This document shows positions 1 to 18,043 of a stretch of 64,000 nucleotides of DNA, in pieces (within the stretch, counting starts at the first letter, position 1; each line of letters starts with the position of its first letter). The position numbers were made by a program, and so were the translations under genes. The notes beneath the pieces are model-generated. The model saw only the letters and a program-made list of their open reading frames with translations. It was not told the origin of the DNA and searched no databases. This DNA is from Halomonas rhizosphaerae (GTDB lineage Bacteria > Pseudomonadota > Gammaproteobacteria > Pseudomonadales > Halomonadaceae). Location: contig NZ_JASCQP010000045.1 of NCBI RefSeq assembly GCF_030010555.1, positions 1-64,000 of the forward strand. Reading direction: 5' to 3'.

Positions 1-27
1 TGATCTTACCCAGCATTGGTGGACACC
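1..27 (+). repeat. IS left terminal inverted repeat
   Basis: Left tip of the IS. It matches the reverse complement of 1227-1253 apart from a few mismatches (TGATCTT-A-CCCAGCA against TGATCTT-G-CCCAGCA, then GTGGACACC in both). Confidence 0.85.
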
Positions 28-30
28 GGT

Positions 31-897
31 CTAAGCGATCATTTGGGCCTCAAAGGCCTCTGGACTGATCATCCCGATTGCACTGTGTCGGCGTTGCCGG
101 TTGTAGTCCAACTCAATGTATTCGAATACCTGCCGACGCATCGCCTCACGGGTCACGAACCGCTCGCCGTGGATGGCTTCGACCTTGAGGCTGTGAAAGA
201 AGCTCTCAGCGCAGGCATTGTCGTAACAGTTGCCCTTGGCGCTCATGCTGCACTTGAGACCGTGACGCATCAGCAGCGACTGGTACAGCGTCGAGCAGTA
301 CTGGCTCCCGCGGTCTGAATGGACAATTACGCCTTTGGGCATCTTCCGGCTCCACAGGGCCATTTTCAGGGCATCGCTGACCAGGTCAGCCGTCATGCGT
401 TCGCTCATCGCCCAGCCGATCACCTTGCGTGAGTACAGATCAATCAGCACCGCCAGATAGAGCCAGCCTTCACCCGTTGCCAGGTAGGTGATGTCGCCGA
501 CCCATTTCTGATTCGGTGCCGTAGCGGTGAAGTCCTGCTCCATCAGGTTCGGTGCGACTGGCAGGCCATGCCGTGAATTCGTGGTGGCCTTGAACTTGCG
601 AGCGGCTTTCGCCCGCAGGTTTTGCCGACGGAGGCTGGCGGCCACAGTATTACGGCAGATGGGTACGCCAGCATCGTTCAGGTCGCGGGTCAGCCTGGGG
701 GCGCCTGAGCGCCCCTTGCCCTGTTCGAAGGCCTGAGCCACGCGCTGATCCGTGATCGTTTGTCGGCGGCGGCGGGAAGACGGTTCACCACCACGCTGTC
801 GCCAGGCGTAGTAGCCGCTGCGGGCGACACCGAGAAACGCGCACATCCGATGAACGCTGAAGGCCTGACGGTGCTGCTCGATGAAGGCGTACTTCAC
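31..897 (-). CDS. IS3-family transposase OrfB (DDE integrase catalytic subunit)
   Basis: Catalytic part of the transposase. The HTH_21-like N-terminal part (about 1-110) is followed by an rve integrase core. The DDE triad is visible as D135 (VGDITY), D195 (HSDRGSQY) and E231 (NACAESFF), with 35 residues between D195 and E231 as in IS3 elements. The GTG at 897 overlaps the orfA stop (GTGA). It is probably made mainly as an OrfAB fusion by -1 slippage on the A7 run near 927-933. The frame is intact, so the element may still be active. Confidence 0.93.
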
Positions 898-1193
898 TTC
901 AGGCTCTTCGCGAAGTACACCGCGGCTTTTTTTGCGATTTCAAGCTCTTCCGACTTCTCAGCCAGCTGACGCTTGAGCCGCGCATTCTCGTCAGCCAAGG
1001 CCTGCTCGCGAGCCGAGACGGTTTGCTGCTGCTGGGCCTTGGCTCGCCATTGATAGAGCTGGCTGGACTGAAGCCCCAGCTCGCGAGCGGCGGCACTGGT
1101 GCCAACACGATCAGCGAGTGCCAGGGCCTCGTCCTTGTAGGCCTGGGAGTAACGGGTACGGGTCTTCTTCATCGCCGCTGCTTGCCTTGCCAT
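894..1193 (-). CDS. IS3-family transposase OrfA (DNA-binding subunit)
   Basis: About 99 residues. A helix-turn-helix of the IS3/IS911 type ([14 protein letters not shown]... SQLYQWRAK) is followed by a leucine-zipper-like coiled coil ([16 protein letters not shown]). It binds the IS ends and multimerises. The ATG at 1193 is preferred because GAGGTGA lies 4 bases upstream; a shorter start at 1172 and a longer one at 1235 are possible. Near its 3' end the codons GCA AAA AAA GCC give an A7 slippery run, from which -1 frameshifting reads directly into orfB. Confidence 0.88.
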
Positions 1194-1226
1194 GGGGTCA
1201 CCTCGTTCAGTGTACTGCCTTAACGG

Positions 1227-1253
1227 GGTGTCCACTGTTGCTGGGCAAGATCA
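1227..1253 (-). repeat. IS right terminal inverted repeat
   Basis: Right tip of the IS, inverted partner of 1-27. The last base of the IS is the A at 1253; the next bases (GTTTTAG) belong to the interrupted DGQHR reading frame, which stays open up to this point. Confidence 0.85.
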
Positions 1254-2078
1254 GTTTTAGATGAAAGTCGAGCAAAAGATATTGCTCATTACATCGATAA
1301 TGAGCTGGGCACTATCCCAACTTCGATCATACTTTCCGCACAAGCAGCAGCAGAGCTTGAGATTGTGGGGAGAGGGAAAACGCTTTCTTTTAAGGAAAAC
1401 CCAAAAGCATTTCTTGTGCTCGATGGTCAACATAGGGTTTTTGGCTTCTCGATGGCAAAAACTCATCTTCGTGTTCCTGTTGTTATTTATAACGGTCTTT
1501 CTCGCAGGGATGAGACAAGACTTTTTATTGATATAAACTCTAAGCAAAAGGGGGTTCCTAACGAACTTTTGCTTGATATTAAGAAGCTTGCAGAATATGA
1601 AAATAATGAAGAAGTTGTTCTTAGAGAAGTCTTCGATATGTTTGACGGGGATTTTTCTAGTGTCTTATATGGTTTGCTCTCTCCAGCAAAAAAATCAAAA
1701 AATAAGATATCCAGAGTCTCGTTTAGGCATGGCGTTTCTCCTGTGCTGGTCTATTTTAGGAATAGAGAGTCAGAGTATATTTTTAAAGTCCTTAATTCGT
1801 ACCTGACAGCCTTCAAAGAAGGGCTGAGTAATCTGGGGTGCGAAAAGTCAATTACTAGTTCAGTCGTATTTCGTGGTGTTATGGGGGCCTTTCCTATAGT
1901 TGTGACAAAAGTAAAGGATAGGTATGGGTCAGATTATAGCGTAAATAATTTTTATGACGTGTTGGAACCTGTCTTTTCTAAAGCCGGAGCTTATAACAAG
2001 TTTGATTCTCCCGGTACGTCGCCTAAGGCGTTAGTGGAGTTTATTGATTCGGGTCTTAAAACTGCCCTGGTGGTGTAA
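1254..2078 (+). pseudogene. DGQHR-domain protein (DndB-like), 5' end removed by the IS
   Basis: The frame is open from the IS border and carries the signature VLDGQHRVFGF, which defines the DGQHR domain found in DndB and related proteins of DNA-modification and phage-defence loci. The reading frame upstream of the first available ATG (1365) is still protein-like up to 1254 (residues such as SRAKDIAHYIDNELGTIP), so the gene was interrupted by the IS rather than starting inside it. The missing N-terminus should lie left of the window. About 274 codons remain. GC is far lower than in the neighbouring core genes, suggesting transfer. The TAA overlaps the ATG of the next gene by one base (TAATG), so the two were translationally coupled. 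The function of this subfamily is not known; a role in defence is inferred from DndB. Confidence 0.75.
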
Positions 2079-3028
2079 TGCGCGTAGATCATCTCCGAGT
2101 TTTTTATGCTCAAGGAATAAATTCAGTTCAGATTCCAAAAGATGATTTTGTCGATTTTAAAGCTTGGGTTTCATCAGGGAAGTACCAGTTAAAAGAAGTT
2201 AGAAATAAAGGTTTCGATGTGGTTGTGTCGGATTATCATAGTTTTTCAACAATGTTGGCCCATGATTCAAGTAGGTTTTGCTCTGCTGCTTTCGAAACAA
2301 TGAAGTTGATCAGTTTTCCCGAGAATCTGCCTCGTTCTTTGGCATGGGTTGCTGTGCAGACATATTATGCAGCCTTTTTTGCCGCGCATTCGGTTCTTCG
2401 GGTTTTTGGGAATGTGTTCAGTTTTTTATACCCTGGGCACCTCAAAATCGTCGAAGAATTTGCTGAAGTTTTGTCAATTCCCTCTAGGCACAATATGTCA
2501 GGTGGCAGCTATTCTGGGTCTTATGATATTAGATCTGGGGAGCTAAGGGTTTCGTCGGCTGGTAAATCCCATGAAGATTTTTGGGAGCGTTTTTTCTATC
2601 TTGTAATGATGCTGCGCGACCAAGTAGATGAACTTGATGTTTTAGAATCTGAAAAAATAAATAACACTAAATACCTATCCGAGATGGTTGATCTTTTGTC
2701 AAATAGTGGAAGCTATAGAAATGGTGCCTGGTTGTCCAGTGTTAGGAACAAGATAAACTACCAGCATACTGATGGTATGTGGTTTCCTTATTCTGGAGGG
2801 AATCATGACATTCCTCGAATACGGAGGATTCTTGGCCAATGGGAGGAAAATAATTCTAGTTATATATTAAACTTAAGATGCGTAAGCGATATGGAGAGGT
2901 TTTTTAAATGTTGTACGTTGATTGTAAATTTTTCTTACCTGATTTTTCAAGATGTTGTCTCAATATCAAGAGTGAAAAAAAACTGCTTTGAAATGTACCC
3001 AGGGGCACTTATTAATCACGCGGGATAG
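2078..3028 (+). CDS. HEPN-like domain protein paired with the DGQHR gene
   Basis: 316 residues, no clear named family. Two HEPN-type signs are visible: a helix with the pattern WVAVQTYYAAFFAAHSVLR (89-108) and, later, R223-N-x5-H230 (RNKINYQH), which fits the Rx4-6H catalytic motif of HEPN ribonucleases. No membrane segment or signal peptide is seen. The start ATG overlaps the stop of the DGQHR gene. It is AT-rich like its partner. The likely role, by inference, is an RNA-cleaving toxin or effector whose partner supplies recognition. With the DGQHR gene cut by the IS, expression of this gene may be lost or may now depend on an IS-derived promoter. Confidence 0.6.
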   Translation: MRVDHLRVFYAQGINSVQIPKDDFVDFKAWVSSGKYQLKEVRNKGFDVVVSDYHSFSTMLAHDSSRFCSAAFETMKLISFPENLPRSLAWVAVQTYYAAFFAAHSVLRVFGNVFSFLYPGHLKIVEEFAEVLSIPSRHNMSGGSYSGSYDIRSGELRVSSAGKSHEDFWERFFYLVMMLRDQVDELDVLESEKINNTKYLSEMVDLLSNSGSYRNGAWLSSVRNKINYQHTDGMWFPYSGGNHDIPRIRRILGQWEENNSSYILNLRCVSDMERFFKCCTLIVNFSYLIFQDVVSISRVKKNCFEMYPGALINHAG

Positions 3029-3058
3029 TTTTTTATTTCTCATTAATGTGATGTGATT

Positions 3059-3721
3059 ATGTGTGGACGTTTCTCTCTTTATAGCTCGTATTCCACGCTT
3101 TCCCAGGGTCTGAAATTGCCGCTGGAGGTGGCGGTGAAGCTGACGCCACGCTACAACGTGGCACCGGGCACCTGGATCACTGCGGTTCGTCATCCCACCG
3201 ATAATGAGCCGCTGGTGATGGACGAGGTTTGGTGGGGCTACCGGCCGCACTGGGCGAAGGAGAAGGCGCCCGAGCCCATCAATGCCACCGTCGAGAAGGT
3301 GGCCACCTCCAACTACTTCCGCGGGGCGTTCGCCCATCATCGCTGCCTCGTGCCTGCCGACGGGTGGTATGAGTGGTTGCCGCTGAATGGCAAGAAGCAG
3401 CCGCACTTCCTGTGCCGTGAGGATCGCGAGCCGATCTGGCTGGCGGCGATCTGGACGGAGCGGCCGGACGGTAAGCCGGGCTGCGCGATCCTGACCGAGC
3501 CGGCGCGCGGTGTGGCCAAGGAAATCCACCCGCGTATGCCGCTGGCCCTGGATGCCGAGAGCCTGAAGCCCTGGCTCGATCCGCACCTGACCGACCGCGA
3601 GACGATCCGCCAGGTGGTGCATCACCTGGATGCAGAGCTGATCACGCACTGGCCGGTGAGCACGCGGGTGAACCGGCCGACAAACGATGAAGCGAGCTTG
3701 ATTGAACCTTTGAAGCCGTAG
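3059..3721 (+). CDS. yedK: SRAP/YedK-family abasic-site processing protein
   Basis: 220 residues. SRAP (SOS response-associated peptidase, HMCES/YedK) proteins form a thiazolidine crosslink with abasic sites in single-stranded DNA through Cys2, which protects the lesion. The key residues are at the expected places: C2 (MCGRF), N75 (PINA), E105 (GWYEW) and H158 (IHPRMP). The start must be the ATG at 3059, since cleavage of its Met exposes Cys2; the in-frame GTG at 3053 would bury it. GC is that of the core genome, in contrast to the AT-rich pair upstream. It sits near umuDC, forming a small DNA-damage cluster. Confidence 0.93.
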   Translation: MCGRFSLYSSYSTLSQGLKLPLEVAVKLTPRYNVAPGTWITAVRHPTDNEPLVMDEVWWGYRPHWAKEKAPEPINATVEKVATSNYFRGAFAHHRCLVPADGWYEWLPLNGKKQPHFLCREDREPIWLAAIWTERPDGKPGCAILTEPARGVAKEIHPRMPLALDAESLKPWLDPHLTDRETIRQVVHHLDAELITHWPVSTRVNRPTNDEASLIEPLKP

Positions 3722-6433: not shown

Positions 6434-7204
6434 TTAGGCGGTCATGCATCGGCTTAACGTTTCGCGATTCCGGTACAGGGCGATCAGTAGCTCTGCAATC
6501 AACAATGCCAAACCTATCACCGGAACTTTTCGCTTTACGAGCCAAGAAACCAATATTCGAAATTCATTTGATCTCAGAGTTATCATGATAGATCTAAGGA
6601 TTTCATCGTCAGTTAATAGGTTTAGGAATATTTCAAGGTATGTTTTTGCGCGGTTTAAATCTCCTTCCAGCACTGATTCTGCGAGGCTCTCAAGAAGTGA
6701 AAGAAAATCATATTCGTTTTCAATAGTCTGAAAGGTAGCTGCCAACTGATTTATTTCTTCCGTTGTGAAACCGATTATATCAGCAAAGATCTGCAGCGCC
6801 GCCTCACTGCATGGGCCGATATTGATTGATCTGGGTAGCATGCTCTCGTTATCGATGGAGTCTCGGACCCACTCAATGGCAGTAGATGGCATGTTGGTTA
6901 GAATCCACGGCTCTACCTCTTCGAGCTCGATTAATTGTGTGTATTCTAGTGGTATGATTTCGTCCAAATTAGTTTGAGCACTGTCAAGCACGCCCTCGAG
7001 CTGATCAATATACTCCTCAGGAGATAGACAAAAATTGGAATATGTGAGTCTGAGCTGAATTTTTATCCGTTGGATTTCTACGTATTCCTCTGGGTTTAAG
7101 TTCAGGGTGCTCGACTGTGCAAAGCTTTTCATCGGCAAGAGGTAGCCCACGGAAGCCCCGGCCCCAAGAGTGACCAGAAAATGTCTTCGATGTAGCGATT
7201 TCAT
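6434..7204 (-). CDS. exported hypothetical protein with Tat-like signal, prophage-edge gene
   Basis: 256 residues of unknown family. The N-terminus (MKSLHRRHFLVTLGAGAS) looks like a twin-arginine signal with R6-R7 before a weakly hydrophobic stretch; cleavage is plausible after SFA (residue 29). The mature part is acidic and helical, and a hydrophobic segment near the C-terminus (VPVIGLALLIAELLIAL) could be a membrane anchor. AAGGAAA lies 7 bases before the ATG at 7204. The gene is AT-rich compared with everything around it and sits immediately beyond phage gene D, where P2 has ogr and att. It is probably a late arrival, either phage cargo (moron) or a flanking island gene. Confidence 0.65.
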   Translation of the reverse strand: MKSLHRRHFLVTLGAGASVGYLLPMKSFAQSSTLNLNPEEYVEIQRIKIQLRLTYSNFCLSPEEYIDQLEGVLDSAQTNLDEIIPLEYTQLIELEEVEPWILTNMPSTAIEWVRDSIDNESMLPRSINIGPCSEAALQIFADIIGFTTEEINQLAATFQTIENEYDFLSLLESLAESVLEGDLNRAKTYLEIFLNLLTDDEILRSIMITLRSNEFRILVSWLVKRKVPVIGLALLIAELLIALYRNRETLSRCMTA

Positions 7205-7256
7205 GAGTGTTTCCTTTTTGTTTTTTTCAGTGTAGCCATAGGTCAAAATTCCGCGA

Positions 7257-14917: not shown

Positions 14918-17900
14918 ATGCAGTTAATCATTCTGTCGCTGCTGTCATTGTTAGTGGCCACATATTTTGGTTATAAATCACCGCTAAAGAATAAGGCAGC
15001 TTTTTTTGGTTCTTTTTTATTTATGGCCTCAATGCTGTTGTATGGTTTTTATTATGTGGCAAATTATTTTACAGGAAGCGGGATTGATGAATCCGTATCT
15101 TTTCACCTGAGTGCTGGGCTTGACGGTGCTGGAGCAGCTGAATATCAAAGTTTGATTTTTTCAACTATTGCGTATGTGTTGATTGTTATAATATTGAGTT
15201 ATTATGTATTTAAAGCGCTAAAAAAGCAGGCCAAAAATCCTAATGGTCATTTCATGCGGTACACCACTACAGTGTTCCTTTTGGTAGCCTCCTTTATCAC
15301 TAATCCAGCGGCACATGATATTTACTATGTGACATCATCTGTATTTTTAGAGGAAGCATATTCGAGCGAAGAAAGTTTTCCTGAAGATTTTATCTCCATA
15401 TCTCCTTCAATTGAAGAGAAGAAGAATATAGTCTATATCTACTTAGAAAGTGTTGAAGCTACATACCTTGATGAAGATTTGTTTCCCAATTTGATGCCTA
15501 ATATCAGGAAGCTCCAACAGTCTGCAACCACGTATACCAACATTCAGAATGTTACACATGCTGGCTGGACAATTGCCGGTATGACTGCCAGTCAATGCGG
15601 ATTTCCTCTTTTTTCCCCTTCTCATGGGAACTCTCTCTCAGGGATGGATCAATTTTTACCTGAGGCTAACTGCATTGGAGATGTGCTTAAAAACAACGGG
15701 TATTATCTTAGTTATATGGGAGGCGCGGACCTAAGCTTTGCTGGAAAAGGGAAATTCTATAAGTCCCACAGCTTTGACAGCGTGCAAGGAAAGAATGAGT
15801 TATCTACGCACTTAAGTGACCGAAAATACATGTCTGGCTGGGGGCTGTATGATGACTCTCTGTTTGCTATGCTTAAAGAAGAGTATTCTCAACTATCAAA
15901 AGACGAAACACCCTTTGGCCTTTTTACGTTGACTCTTGACACCCACCACCCCAAAGGGCATATGCCTAAGTCTTGTAAAAACCTTGAATATAAAGATGGT
16001 AGTAATCCTATCCTGAATTCTGTGCATTGTGCAGATGCATTAGTTAAGGATTTTGTTGACTATATTGAAAAGAACCCAAGTCAAAACGGCACCGTCATAG
16101 TAATCGCATCTGATCATTACGCTATGAAAAATACTGCCTGGGATGATTTAAACAAAGGGGAAAGAAGGAATCTTTTCATGGTCATCGACTCAGCATCAAA
16201 AGAGGAAGGTGTAAATGTCAATAAACCAGGATCAATACTGGATGTTACGCCAACGCTACTCTCCTTTCTTGATACTCCGGTCGATGGGCTAGGGTTTGGT
16301 AGAAACTTAAACTCTGACTCCCTGTCACTGATCGAACAAAAGAGTGATATTAACTCTTACCTCACTGAGCATCAGGGTGTTGTCAAATACCTCTGGAGCT
16401 ACCCGGAGCTAGATGAGGGGATAAAGTACAGCCTGGAGGAAGAGGGATTTCTTTTACTAGGCGACAGGAGTATTTCTATTCCGTCAATCATAAAGTTAGA
16501 TGGTGATGCCAAAGTTGACGAAATTGTTTTTGCTAATTCAGGGAGAAAGAAGCTTAGCGATTATATAGAGGAGATGTCAATAGGACAAGATTTTGTCTGG
16601 GTTGACGATTGCAAAATAATTAATGCGTTTGCATATCCGGGTGAAGCTGGTAGCAAAACAACCGAATTGTGTATCGCTTCTGGGACAACCGGCGCAAGTG
16701 AGATTTCTGCATGGGGCCTCGTTGACGGAACAAGTGTTAATCACTCTGAAATAAAGGATTCGCTGACAAGTAAAAATTTATCTGAAAAATTACATGAAGA
16801 GCGAGTTGGCAATGTATCTAACATTATTAAATACGGTGCTGCGAACCTAGAAACCTTTTCCGTTTCTTCTAGAAGTGACATGGCAGGAAGTGTAGTGGTG
16901 CGGTCTGCTGGTTATGGTACTGGCGCTTCTTTTATCGAACAAAATGGAAGTCGAATACGCTTTGAACGTGGTCTTACTCTTGTTGGATTATCCAACACTC
17001 ATGCGCCGATCAAGCTTAGCTACATAGATTCATATGGTGGCTCAGTGACTGACCAAGATGCTCTTGATTTTTCTGGCGACTTTCACTCCATGATGGAAGA
17101 TCACTCGGAGTCATTCGATACGTTCCTTATCATTGGCCATGATAGTGTTGTTGGCAGTGATACTGAACATTTAAACTCTTCATTCTCGGGAACCAAGCTT
17201 GAGAAATGGAGCGATATCAAGCACCGCCAGCCTTATCTTGCTGTACTGTCAAGTCATGGTGAAACCATAGAACTGCTTGGGGATAGTGAAGATTCTTTGA
17301 CCATAAGAATTAAAGATTTCGCCAAATCTTTTACGTCCGTAGACCAAAGGAACTTGGACAGCATAGAGAGGGTTGCTCACGCTGGCGGCGGGTATGAAGG
17401 GAAAACTTATACGAATTCATTAGAAGCGCTTGAATACAATAAAAATAATTACTCGTTCTTTGAAGTTGACTTTTCGTGGACATCAGACGCAGAGCTCGTT
17501 TGTATTCACGACTGGGACAATAGCTTTGAGCGCTCATTTGGATTTAGTACTGAGTCAGCTGTTACTTTAAATGAGTTTAAGACTTTGGTGGCCGATAAAT
17601 CAGATGTTGAAAAATGTACCCTCTCTTCTCTTGCTTACTGGGTGGAAAAAAATCCAGGAAAAAAAATTGTTACTGATGTAAAAGCAAGAAACGCTAACGC
17701 GCTAAAATTAATTGCTGAACGCTACCCGGATCTCAAGGACAGTTTTGTGCCACAAGTCTATCAGCCGACAGAATATTATATAGCCAGATTGTTAGGTTTT
17801 GATAATGTCATATGGACGCTGTATCGTTTCCGTGGTGACAACGAAGCTGTTATAAGTCATTTGGAAAATATGGATTTGTATGGATTGACCATGCCGCGTG

Positions 17901-18043
17901 GCAAGGTTGACGCTGGCTTGGCTAAGATGGCGTTTGATGAAAGGGGCGTGCGCAGCTACGTCCATACAATAAATAGTGAGGATGAGTACCAGAAGTACTT
18001 GGATCAGGGTGCTTCTGAGATTTATACTGACTGGCTATATTGA
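14918..18043 (+). CDS. membrane phosphoglycerol transferase (MdoB/LtaS-like sulfatase fold) fused to a GDPD domain
   Basis: 1041 residues. Four N-terminal membrane helices (about 2-19, 27-50, 79-100, 115-131) anchor a periplasmic sulfatase-fold domain (168-455). Its motifs are YIYLESVEATY (metal Glu177), GWTIAGMTASQCG (nucleophile Thr218), TLDTHHPKG and ASDHY (Asp399/His400), which most resemble MdoB/OpgB and LtaS-type phosphoglycerol transferases. A stretch of about 340 residues has no recognised domain. The C-terminal part (818-1041) is a glycerophosphodiester phosphodiesterase: H821 (AHAGGG), E849 and D851 (FEVDF), H864 (IHDWD). The fusion could both transfer and hydrolyse glycerophosphate esters at the envelope. 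It is AT-rich, opposite to the late genes, and lies between the tail-fibre assembly gene and FI, where P2 has Z/fun. Probably a lysogenic-conversion gene. Confidence 0.85.
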   Translation: MQLIILSLLSLLVATYFGYKSPLKNKAAFFGSFLFMASMLLYGFYYVANYFTGSGIDESVSFHLSAGLDGAGAAEYQSLIFSTIAYVLIVIILSYYVFKALKKQAKNPNGHFMRYTTTVFLLVASFITNPAAHDIYYVTSSVFLEEAYSSEESFPEDFISISPSIEEKKNIVYIYLESVEATYLDEDLFPNLMPNIRKLQQSATTYTNIQNVTHAGWTIAGMTASQCGFPLFSPSHGNSLSGMDQFLPEANCIGDVLKNNGYYLSYMGGADLSFAGKGKFYKSHSFDSVQGKNELSTHLSDRKYMSGWGLYDDSLFAMLKEEYSQLSKDETPFGLFTLTLDTHHPKGHMPKSCKNLEYKDGSNPILNSVHCADALVKDFVDYIEKNPSQNGTVIVIASDHYAMKNTAWDDLNKGERRNLFMVIDSASKEEGVNVNKPGSILDVTPTLLSFLDTPVDGLGFGRNLNSDSLSLIEQKSDINSYLTEHQGVVKYLWSYPELDEGIKYSLEEEGFLLLGDRSISIPSIIKLDGDAKVDEIVFANSGRKKLSDYIEEMSIGQDFVWVDDCKIINAFAYPGEAGSKTTELCIASGTTGASEISAWGLVDGTSVNHSEIKDSLTSKNLSEKLHEERVGNVSNIIKYGAANLETFSVSSRSDMAGSVVVRSAGYGTGASFIEQNGSRIRFERGLTLVGLSNTHAPIKLSYIDSYGGSVTDQDALDFSGDFHSMMEDHSESFDTFLIIGHDSVVGSDTEHLNSSFSGTKLEKWSDIKHRQPYLAVLSSHGETIELLGDSEDSLTIRIKDFAKSFTSVDQRNLDSIERVAHAGGGYEGKTYTNSLEALEYNKNNYSFFEVDFSWTSDAELVCIHDWDNSFERSFGFSTESAVTLNEFKTLVADKSDVEKCTLSSLAYWVEKNPGKKIVTDVKARNANALKLIAERYPDLKDSFVPQVYQPTEYYIARLLGFDNVIWTLYRFRGDNEAVISHLENMDLYGLTMPRGKVDAGLAKMAFDERGVRSYVHTINSEDEYQKYLDQGASEIYTDWLY

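Follow-up and report, generated by a model that had tools for sequence, protein, structure and literature searches.

We analysed the first 64,000 bases of contig NZ_JASCQP010000045.1 of Halomonas rhizosphaerae (contig C35, bases 1-64000, in a 4.07-Mb genome), a stretch referred to here as the window. Close to its left end lie two genes in the same orientation, the first encoding a protein of the DGQHR domain family and the second a predicted HEPN-fold protein. A preliminary description made from the sequence alone had proposed them as a two-gene defence module, and several of its observations hold: the two frames overlap by a single base (TAATG at 2076-2080, sharing base 2078), and both genes are AT-rich, with a GC content of 0.40 and 0.389 against 0.642 for the window. 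The pair itself is real, but the description overlooked that in the window the DGQHR gene is cut by an insertion sequence (IS).

The DGQHR signature had been read correctly. Besides carrying this motif, the first protein matches TIGR03187 with 109.4 bits, over the curated cut-off of 58.85, which places it in the DGQHR domain family. The match covers model positions 44-272; the N-terminal QR pair, and with it a complete TIGR03187 domain, is absent from the window copy, which has lost its first part to the IS. This element is IS3-like by eye, ends in the inverted repeats TGATCTTaCCCAGCA... and TGATCTTgCCCAGCA..., and is found in six near-identical copies of 1253-1258 bases in the host genome. 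Using a profile of related DGQHR proteins (A2), we located the missing start, at profile positions 6-54, on the minus strand of contig C21 (G000:C21:1254-1400), where the fragment abuts another copy of the same IS. The left flank of the IS is visible at three places (C43, C21 and C8), and solely at C21 did the profile find the missing start. The first 48 codons of the gene are located there, separate from the window contig. Once the IS is removed and C21 and C35 are joined, the empty site reads as a single open frame of 321 amino acids with zero internal stops. We infer this join from the missing start, the GTT repeats and the open empty-site frame; it is not assembled, since the window begins at base 1 of C35. 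A whole gene starting from the GTG at 1365 was ruled out by the TIGR03187 match, which begins at position 44, and by the fragment on C21. Because the DGQHR gene is cut by the IS, the window copy of the pair is probably inactive. In an intact relative, the N-domain of the DGQHR protein is predicted to adopt a ParB-CTPase/sulfiredoxin fold.

The HEPN identity of the second protein, proposed on the basis of its motif, was borne out by structure prediction. The model is confident and is structurally closest to the HEPN protein AF0298, and the modelled four-helix fold would place the protein in the HEPN superfamily. The hidden Markov model search suggested in the preliminary description recovered the first protein, through TIGR03187, but not the second, for which no covering model was found in Pfam, NCBIfam, PHROG or PADLOC. 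Other searches were equally silent: the profile of the second protein (A1) returned from the PDB only unrelated chains, with a best E of 0.2; Foldseek against viral models gave zero matches at E <= 0.001; and tblastn of the window HEPN protein against phage records gave zero matches at E <= 1, though the distant partner of phage PfAC19 is present there.

Conservation was followed in 84 aligned relatives of the second protein, some of them near-duplicates. H104, R108, H165, W169, N224 and Y228 are each kept in 84/84, R223 in 83/84 and N227 in 79/84. The Rx6H motif singled out earlier, R223-H230 within RNKINYQH, is present, as is the YYAAFFAAHSVLR helix. H230, however, is kept in only 64 of the 84 (14 Q, 4 F, 1 L and 1 R elsewhere), so that the conserved Rx4-6H of a classical RNase-type HEPN protein is not found and R223-H230 was rejected as the catalytic pair because of the variability of H230. 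Passages of PMC3710099 describe AF0298-type HEPN-T and AbiV proteins that lack the histidine of Rx4-6H and keep the arginine, together with a second conserved histidine from an insert between helices 2 and 3. In sequence, the window protein appears to follow this pattern (arginine kept, histidine lost, a second conserved histidine on the N-terminal side) with R223 and H165, the latter standing at the start of helix 164-183, after the insert. By analogy, R223 and the upstream H165 would replace the classical dyad. The features of the locus are collected in Table 1.

Table 1. Features at the DGQHR-HEPN locus, in positions of the window.
Feature	Position	Strand	Remark
Insertion sequence with two overlapping transposase open reading frames (31-897, 894-1235)	1..1253	-	Cuts the DGQHR gene
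3-base target repeat GTT	1254..1256	.	The same GTT closes the left flank on contig C21
3' part of the DGQHR gene	1254..2078	+	Codons 49 onward of the 321-codon empty-site frame
DGQHR motif codons	1422..1436	+	From the translation; invariant in alignments A2 and A3 of related DGQHR proteins
Gene for the predicted HEPN-fold protein P0002, 316 amino acids	2078..3028	+	
H165 codon	2570..2572	+	Invariant (84/84); candidate alternative active-site histidine
R223-N224-x-x-N227-Y228 codons	2744..2761	+	Conserved form of the motif
H230 codon, histidine of Rx6H	2765..2767	+	Poorly kept (64/84)
SRAP (SOS response associated peptidase) gene	3053..3721	+	Downstream neighbour; PF02586, 9.1e-56

The two genes also travel together elsewhere, as the preliminary description had supposed. 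In all 13 distinct loci found with the HEPN profile, eight of them from scans of genome and viral contigs and five from sampled genomes, the gene immediately before the HEPN gene, on the same strand, is a DGQHR gene. Three plasmid records match the window HEPN protein, Acinetobacter pTR3_4 with a DGQHR gene and those of Tritonibacter and Microvirga without, which brings the overall tally to 14/16 loci other than the window. The two exceptions look like decayed loci: the Tritonibacter locus (L081) keeps an open HEPN frame with IS21-type transposase- and ATPase-like frames (by eye) immediately upstream, and the Microvirga HEPN gene is a degraded remnant. Over 23 pairs, the distance between the genes ranges from -101 to +18 nucleotides and lies between -4 and +12 in 18 of them; the widest overlaps are probably due to start codons placed too far upstream. 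Between the two proteins, the distance matrices show a correlation with an r of 0.854, against a maximum of 0.367 in 2000 permutations, as would any stable operon that is passed on as a unit. The pairs range over Gamma-, Beta- and Alphaproteobacteria and Acidobacteriota, with one Deltaproteobacteria and one Verrucomicrobia metagenome-assembled genome. The HEPN gene is rare nonetheless, being present in 2/369 genomes of the class, 2/151 of the family and 4/398 of the phylum, samples that overlap and whose counts each include the host genome.

Related pairs were also found through the first gene. When viral contigs were scanned with the DGQHR profile, at least 33 loci came up. In 10 of the 33 matches listed, the downstream partner matches the HEPN profile (E < 0.05 among the open reading frames of that locus). 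Six more of the listed loci have a divergent group of partners, whose profile compares with A1 at 89.9% probability and has the motifs YYAAFFA, H...W and RN..NY in common with it, for a total of 16 HEPN-like partners among the 33 matches listed. The partners in PfAC19, in Providencia and Burkholderia plasmids and in L037 compare with A1 at 97.7%, against 0.1-0.2% for three column-shuffled controls, and comparisons with L038 plus Leptospira (6.6%) and with L045 (35.1%) are unconvincing.

Several of these pairs lie in mobile elements. On C21, a phage repressor gene (phrog_4, 2.2e-40) ends 51 bases upstream of the DGQHR start, and the same contig encodes a phage primase (phrog_1139) and an integrase. 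The window, for its part, encodes a tail sheath and the GPD baseplate protein, and its terminase shares a PHROG with that of the P2-like contig L034. Granted the join, which the sequences suggest, these genes are most naturally read as parts of a P2-like prophage divided between C21 and C35 at the IS. In L034, the pair stands between the replication nickase (phrog_91) and portal genes of a P2-like prophage, the tin/old hotspot, which according to passages of PMC9519451 houses tin, old and further, newly described defence systems. Neither the L034 HEPN protein in phage and plasmid records nor the L034 pair in E. coli genomes gave any match. The filamentous Pf phage PfAC19 has the order repressor, DGQHR, partner, as in the window prophage; for its sister Pf phages, a table of PMC11878078 that gives the systems, not their position, lists IetAS, Avs and others.

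Modification and defence genes also occur beside the pair. On pTR3_4, a DNA methyltransferase, a NotI endonuclease, DGQHR and HEPN follow one another, each separated from the next by a few bases, and an N6/N4 DNA methyltransferase lies directly upstream of DGQHR in six viral contigs among the 33 matches listed (three of them tested by Pfam, and some near-copies of each other). An EcoRI-type methyltransferase and a GmrSD_N-HNH gene follow just downstream of the pair in Massilia, an AlbA_2 gene lies near it in Granulicella, and on Providencia plasmids (L076, 3688-8184) the pair is flanked by umuD and umuC, and an AbiH gene lies in the vicinity. No LexA-type boxes were found upstream of four pairs.

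We therefore regard the pair as probably an unnamed anti-phage system, because the two genes share their travel through phages, plasmids and genomes, often near DNA methyltransferases or phage-defence sites. The specific form we favour, with a little better than even confidence, is a compact anti-phage module on mobile elements that combines a DGQHR protein as nucleoside triphosphate (NTP)-switch sensor with an AF0298/AbiV-type HEPN effector. Its support consists of the operon, the predicted folds, the conservation, the prophage and methyltransferase settings and the disruption by the IS; from these we infer anti-phage function, NTP binding, sensing of DNA state, RNase activity and the direction of control. 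In such a module, the DGQHR protein (ParB/sulfiredoxin-fold, DndB-like) would bind an NTP, as its fold suggests, and may read the state of DNA, whether methylated versus unmodified or phage-altered, as suggested by its methyltransferase neighbours and by SspE. On incoming phage DNA it would license its HEPN partner, a step modelled on the operon and on a PD-T4-2-like precedent. The HEPN protein would cleave RNA through R223 and H165, following what passages of PMC3710099 propose, and phage growth would halt, probably at the cell's cost. On this reading, the window module belonged to the P2-like prophage, directly behind the repressor gene, and the IS later cut the sensor gene.

Several settings weigh against this interpretation. 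No recognised restriction-modification (R-M) gene lies beside the pair in the window prophage. In L013, the pair is preceded by a pyruvate dehydrogenase gene and followed by two genes of no recognised kind, and in L023 its neighbours are conjugation genes. The neighbours in L012, L016, L024, L028 and L029 resemble ordinary chromosome (by look, no models being applied), and chromosomal copies are mostly without phage- or methyltransferase-type neighbours.

A coupling to R-M, or modification-dependent restriction, would make the pair a second-line partner of DNA methyltransferases that acts when restriction fails, as PrrC does; alternatively, the ParB-fold protein would cut DNA and the HEPN protein would serve as its nucleic-acid-binding subunit. 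The row of genes on pTR3_4, the six viral contigs among the matches listed, the Massilia neighbours and the PrrC precedent (in passages of PMC3710099) speak for this account, and the variable H230 would fit a binding role. Yet a methyltransferase is missing beside the window pair and beside most of the others, the six viral contigs belong to the more distant partner group at 89.9% and are in part near-copies of one another, and the (near-)invariant H165, H104, R108 and R223 resemble an active site more than a bare binding fold. Taking both forms together, we consider restriction an unlikely account.

We give a similarly low probability to a toxin-antitoxin-like arrangement, in which the HEPN protein is an always-on RNase neutralised by the DGQHR protein and set free by infection or loss of the element. 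The two-gene operon with the partner first, the HEPN gene second and mostly tiny gaps would suit it, as would the frequency of HEPN RNases among toxins (noted in passages of PMC3710099) and the linked inheritance of the two proteins, although the latter is expected for any stable operon. However, at two independent loci, the window and Tritonibacter, the DGQHR gene has been cut or has disappeared next to a transposable element, and the HEPN frame is still open. A constitutive toxin left without an intact partner ought to be too harmful to persist there, which makes this arrangement less likely unless the gene is no longer transcribed. A prophage housekeeping or regulatory role, for example as a repressor-linked regulator of lysogeny, is very unlikely even though the pair follows the repressor in the window prophage and in PfAC19, since plasmids, the P2 tin/old site and chromosomes with no phage genes in the vicinity harbour it too, so that it is independent of any one lysogeny circuit, and since Pf phages with known defence systems regularly have accessory cargo next to the repressor (the consulted table of PMC11878078 not listing position).

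If the favoured anti-phage module is correct, a two-gene system joins the defences spread by prophages and plasmids, with an effector that has no Pfam or PADLOC entry. It would also offer a genetic handle on stand-alone DndB-like DGQHR proteins; for one DndB-like protein, passages of PMC12704722 describe binding of ATP and GTP and call its role unexplored. The methyltransferase neighbours lead to a testable prediction on DNA-modification sensing, and the invariant H165 with the variable H230 offers a direct way of testing whether, as was suggested in 2013, an alternative histidine serves in some HEPN families.

Among the DGQHR loci of the survey, other partners were seen as well. In L043 (4798-6452), L052 (2388-4117) and L053 (7417-9122), the DGQHR gene comes directly behind a gene that it overlaps or abuts and whose small product has three to four predicted membrane segments; the L043 pair lies between tail genes of a phage-like region. 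Two of these small proteins were tested, and neither has a Pfam match; they are possible alternative effectors. In L054 (6485-9119), the DGQHR gene overlaps a RelA_SpoT-domain gene (3.5e-10), and in L033 an FRG-domain gene stands beside DGQHR in the opposite orientation. L055, L056, L058 and L060 encode DGQHR proteins of ~500 amino acids followed within a few bases by proteins of 400-440 amino acids, and no recognised Pfam domain was found in that of L055. DGQHR proteins of ~780-800 amino acids lie beside a Dam-type (D12) DNA methyltransferase-like gene, by eye, in L044, L046 and L047. Plasmids pNL1 and Agrobacterium S7/73 (L078, L080) carry DGQHR, radical SAM and ATP-binding protein genes in this order, with a second long DGQHR gene nearby.

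A broader and more tentative possibility, which we hold to be rather doubtful, is that mobile-element immunity has a general sensor hub in the DGQHR proteins, NTP-gated ParB-fold switches that read DNA modification and act through interchangeable effectors. These effectors would comprise HEPN proteins, the small multi-pass membrane proteins of L043, L052 and L053, the RelA/SpoT-type alarmone enzyme of L054 and DNA methyltransferases. If so, the window pair would belong to a widespread and as yet undescribed class of defence systems, and its HEPN protein would be an RNase with a relocated active-site histidine.

In the window, the pair has as neighbours the IS, the SRAP gene, umuC, an S24 peptidase gene and phage tail genes. 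The presence of umuC and the S24-peptidase gene may be compared with the umuD/umuC setting in Providencia. A SRAP gene likewise follows the pair in L024 (7337-8014; PF02586, 3e-54), both being halomonad loci, and is possibly associated with the pair since one trails it in each; a SRAP-like frame was also seen by eye behind the DGQHR gene of L053. Within the prophage tail region, an AT-rich gene for a 1041-amino-acid protein (14918-18043) with a Sulfatase domain (1.5e-27) and a weak GDPD match represents a second cargo gene of the prophage. A lower-GC gene on the minus strand (6437-7246) adjoins the baseplate gene and encodes a protein of 270 amino acids whose start looks twin-arginine-like by eye and which has no Pfam match.

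Among known systems, two share the DGQHR superfamily with the window protein: DndB (PF14072, 30.3 bits against a cut-off of 29.1) and DpdB of the 7-deazaguanine system (PADLOC match 1.6e-5). Membership of either system was rejected, at 58.4 bits against the equivalog cut-off of 450 for TIGR04172 (Dnd) and 24.7 against 300 for NF041060 (Dpd), and no dnd or dpd genes were recognised beside the window pair. The host has a second, complete DGQHR gene before a PAPS-reductase-domain gene (L010; G000:C33, ~51.6-53.9 kb), probably dndB-dndC, and given this locus it may also have DNA phosphorothioation.

With AF0298-type HEPN-T proteins, the window protein differs in length (316 against 126 amino acids) and, as with AbiV, in its own conserved RN..NY, H...W and WFPY-type motifs. 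PF05168, the model of AF0298-type HEPN-T, does not match it at E <= 10; the distant partner of L045 reaches this model at 0.0022, with 18.6 bits against a cut-off of 22.

PrrC is, like the window's second protein, a HEPN effector that can be found near an R-M system, described in passages of PMC3710099 as a second line near a type Ic system. PrrC has its own ATPase, whereas in the pair the separate DGQHR protein would be the switch; its R-M system is adjacent, whereas most copies of the pair have no R-M genes beside them.

The preliminary description had considered the pair an unnamed system. No PADLOC model covers its HEPN protein, and the pair was not found in the open-licence PMC literature searched (bioRxiv lying outside the search), but the combination of a ParB-fold protein with a HEPN protein has precedents. 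The nearest tested system, PD-T4-2 (Vassallo et al. 2022), for which a table in PMC10952713 gives both DUF262 and HEPN and which blocks T4 in its native strain (a passage of PMC9519451), likewise joins a ParB/Srx-fold NTPase-type protein to a HEPN protein; it has DUF262 where the window pair has DGQHR, and neither window protein matches the PADLOC PD-T4-2 models at E <= 10. In all seven HEPN_MAE_28990 loci over the Pfam cut-off (L085-L091; three weaker matches were left out), the gene upstream of the HEPN gene is a GmrSD_N (DUF262) gene, and passages of PMC3710099 list this family in an operon with ParB and a methylase. Two of these DUF262 proteins match PADLOC NsnA and PD-T4-2_A (7.7e-37 and 1.7e-33 for PD-T4-2_A); the HEPN proteins of the two loci tested have no PADLOC match, which limits equating those loci with PD-T4-2. 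Membership of the window protein in HEPN_MAE_28990 (PF18737) was rejected: with its 316 amino acids and RN..NY motif, it is unmatched at E <= 10 and has no detectable kinship to that family (hhalign probability 0.2%, 6 sequences). Altogether, the plan of an NTP-switch sensor with a HEPN effector is known, and its components here are new.
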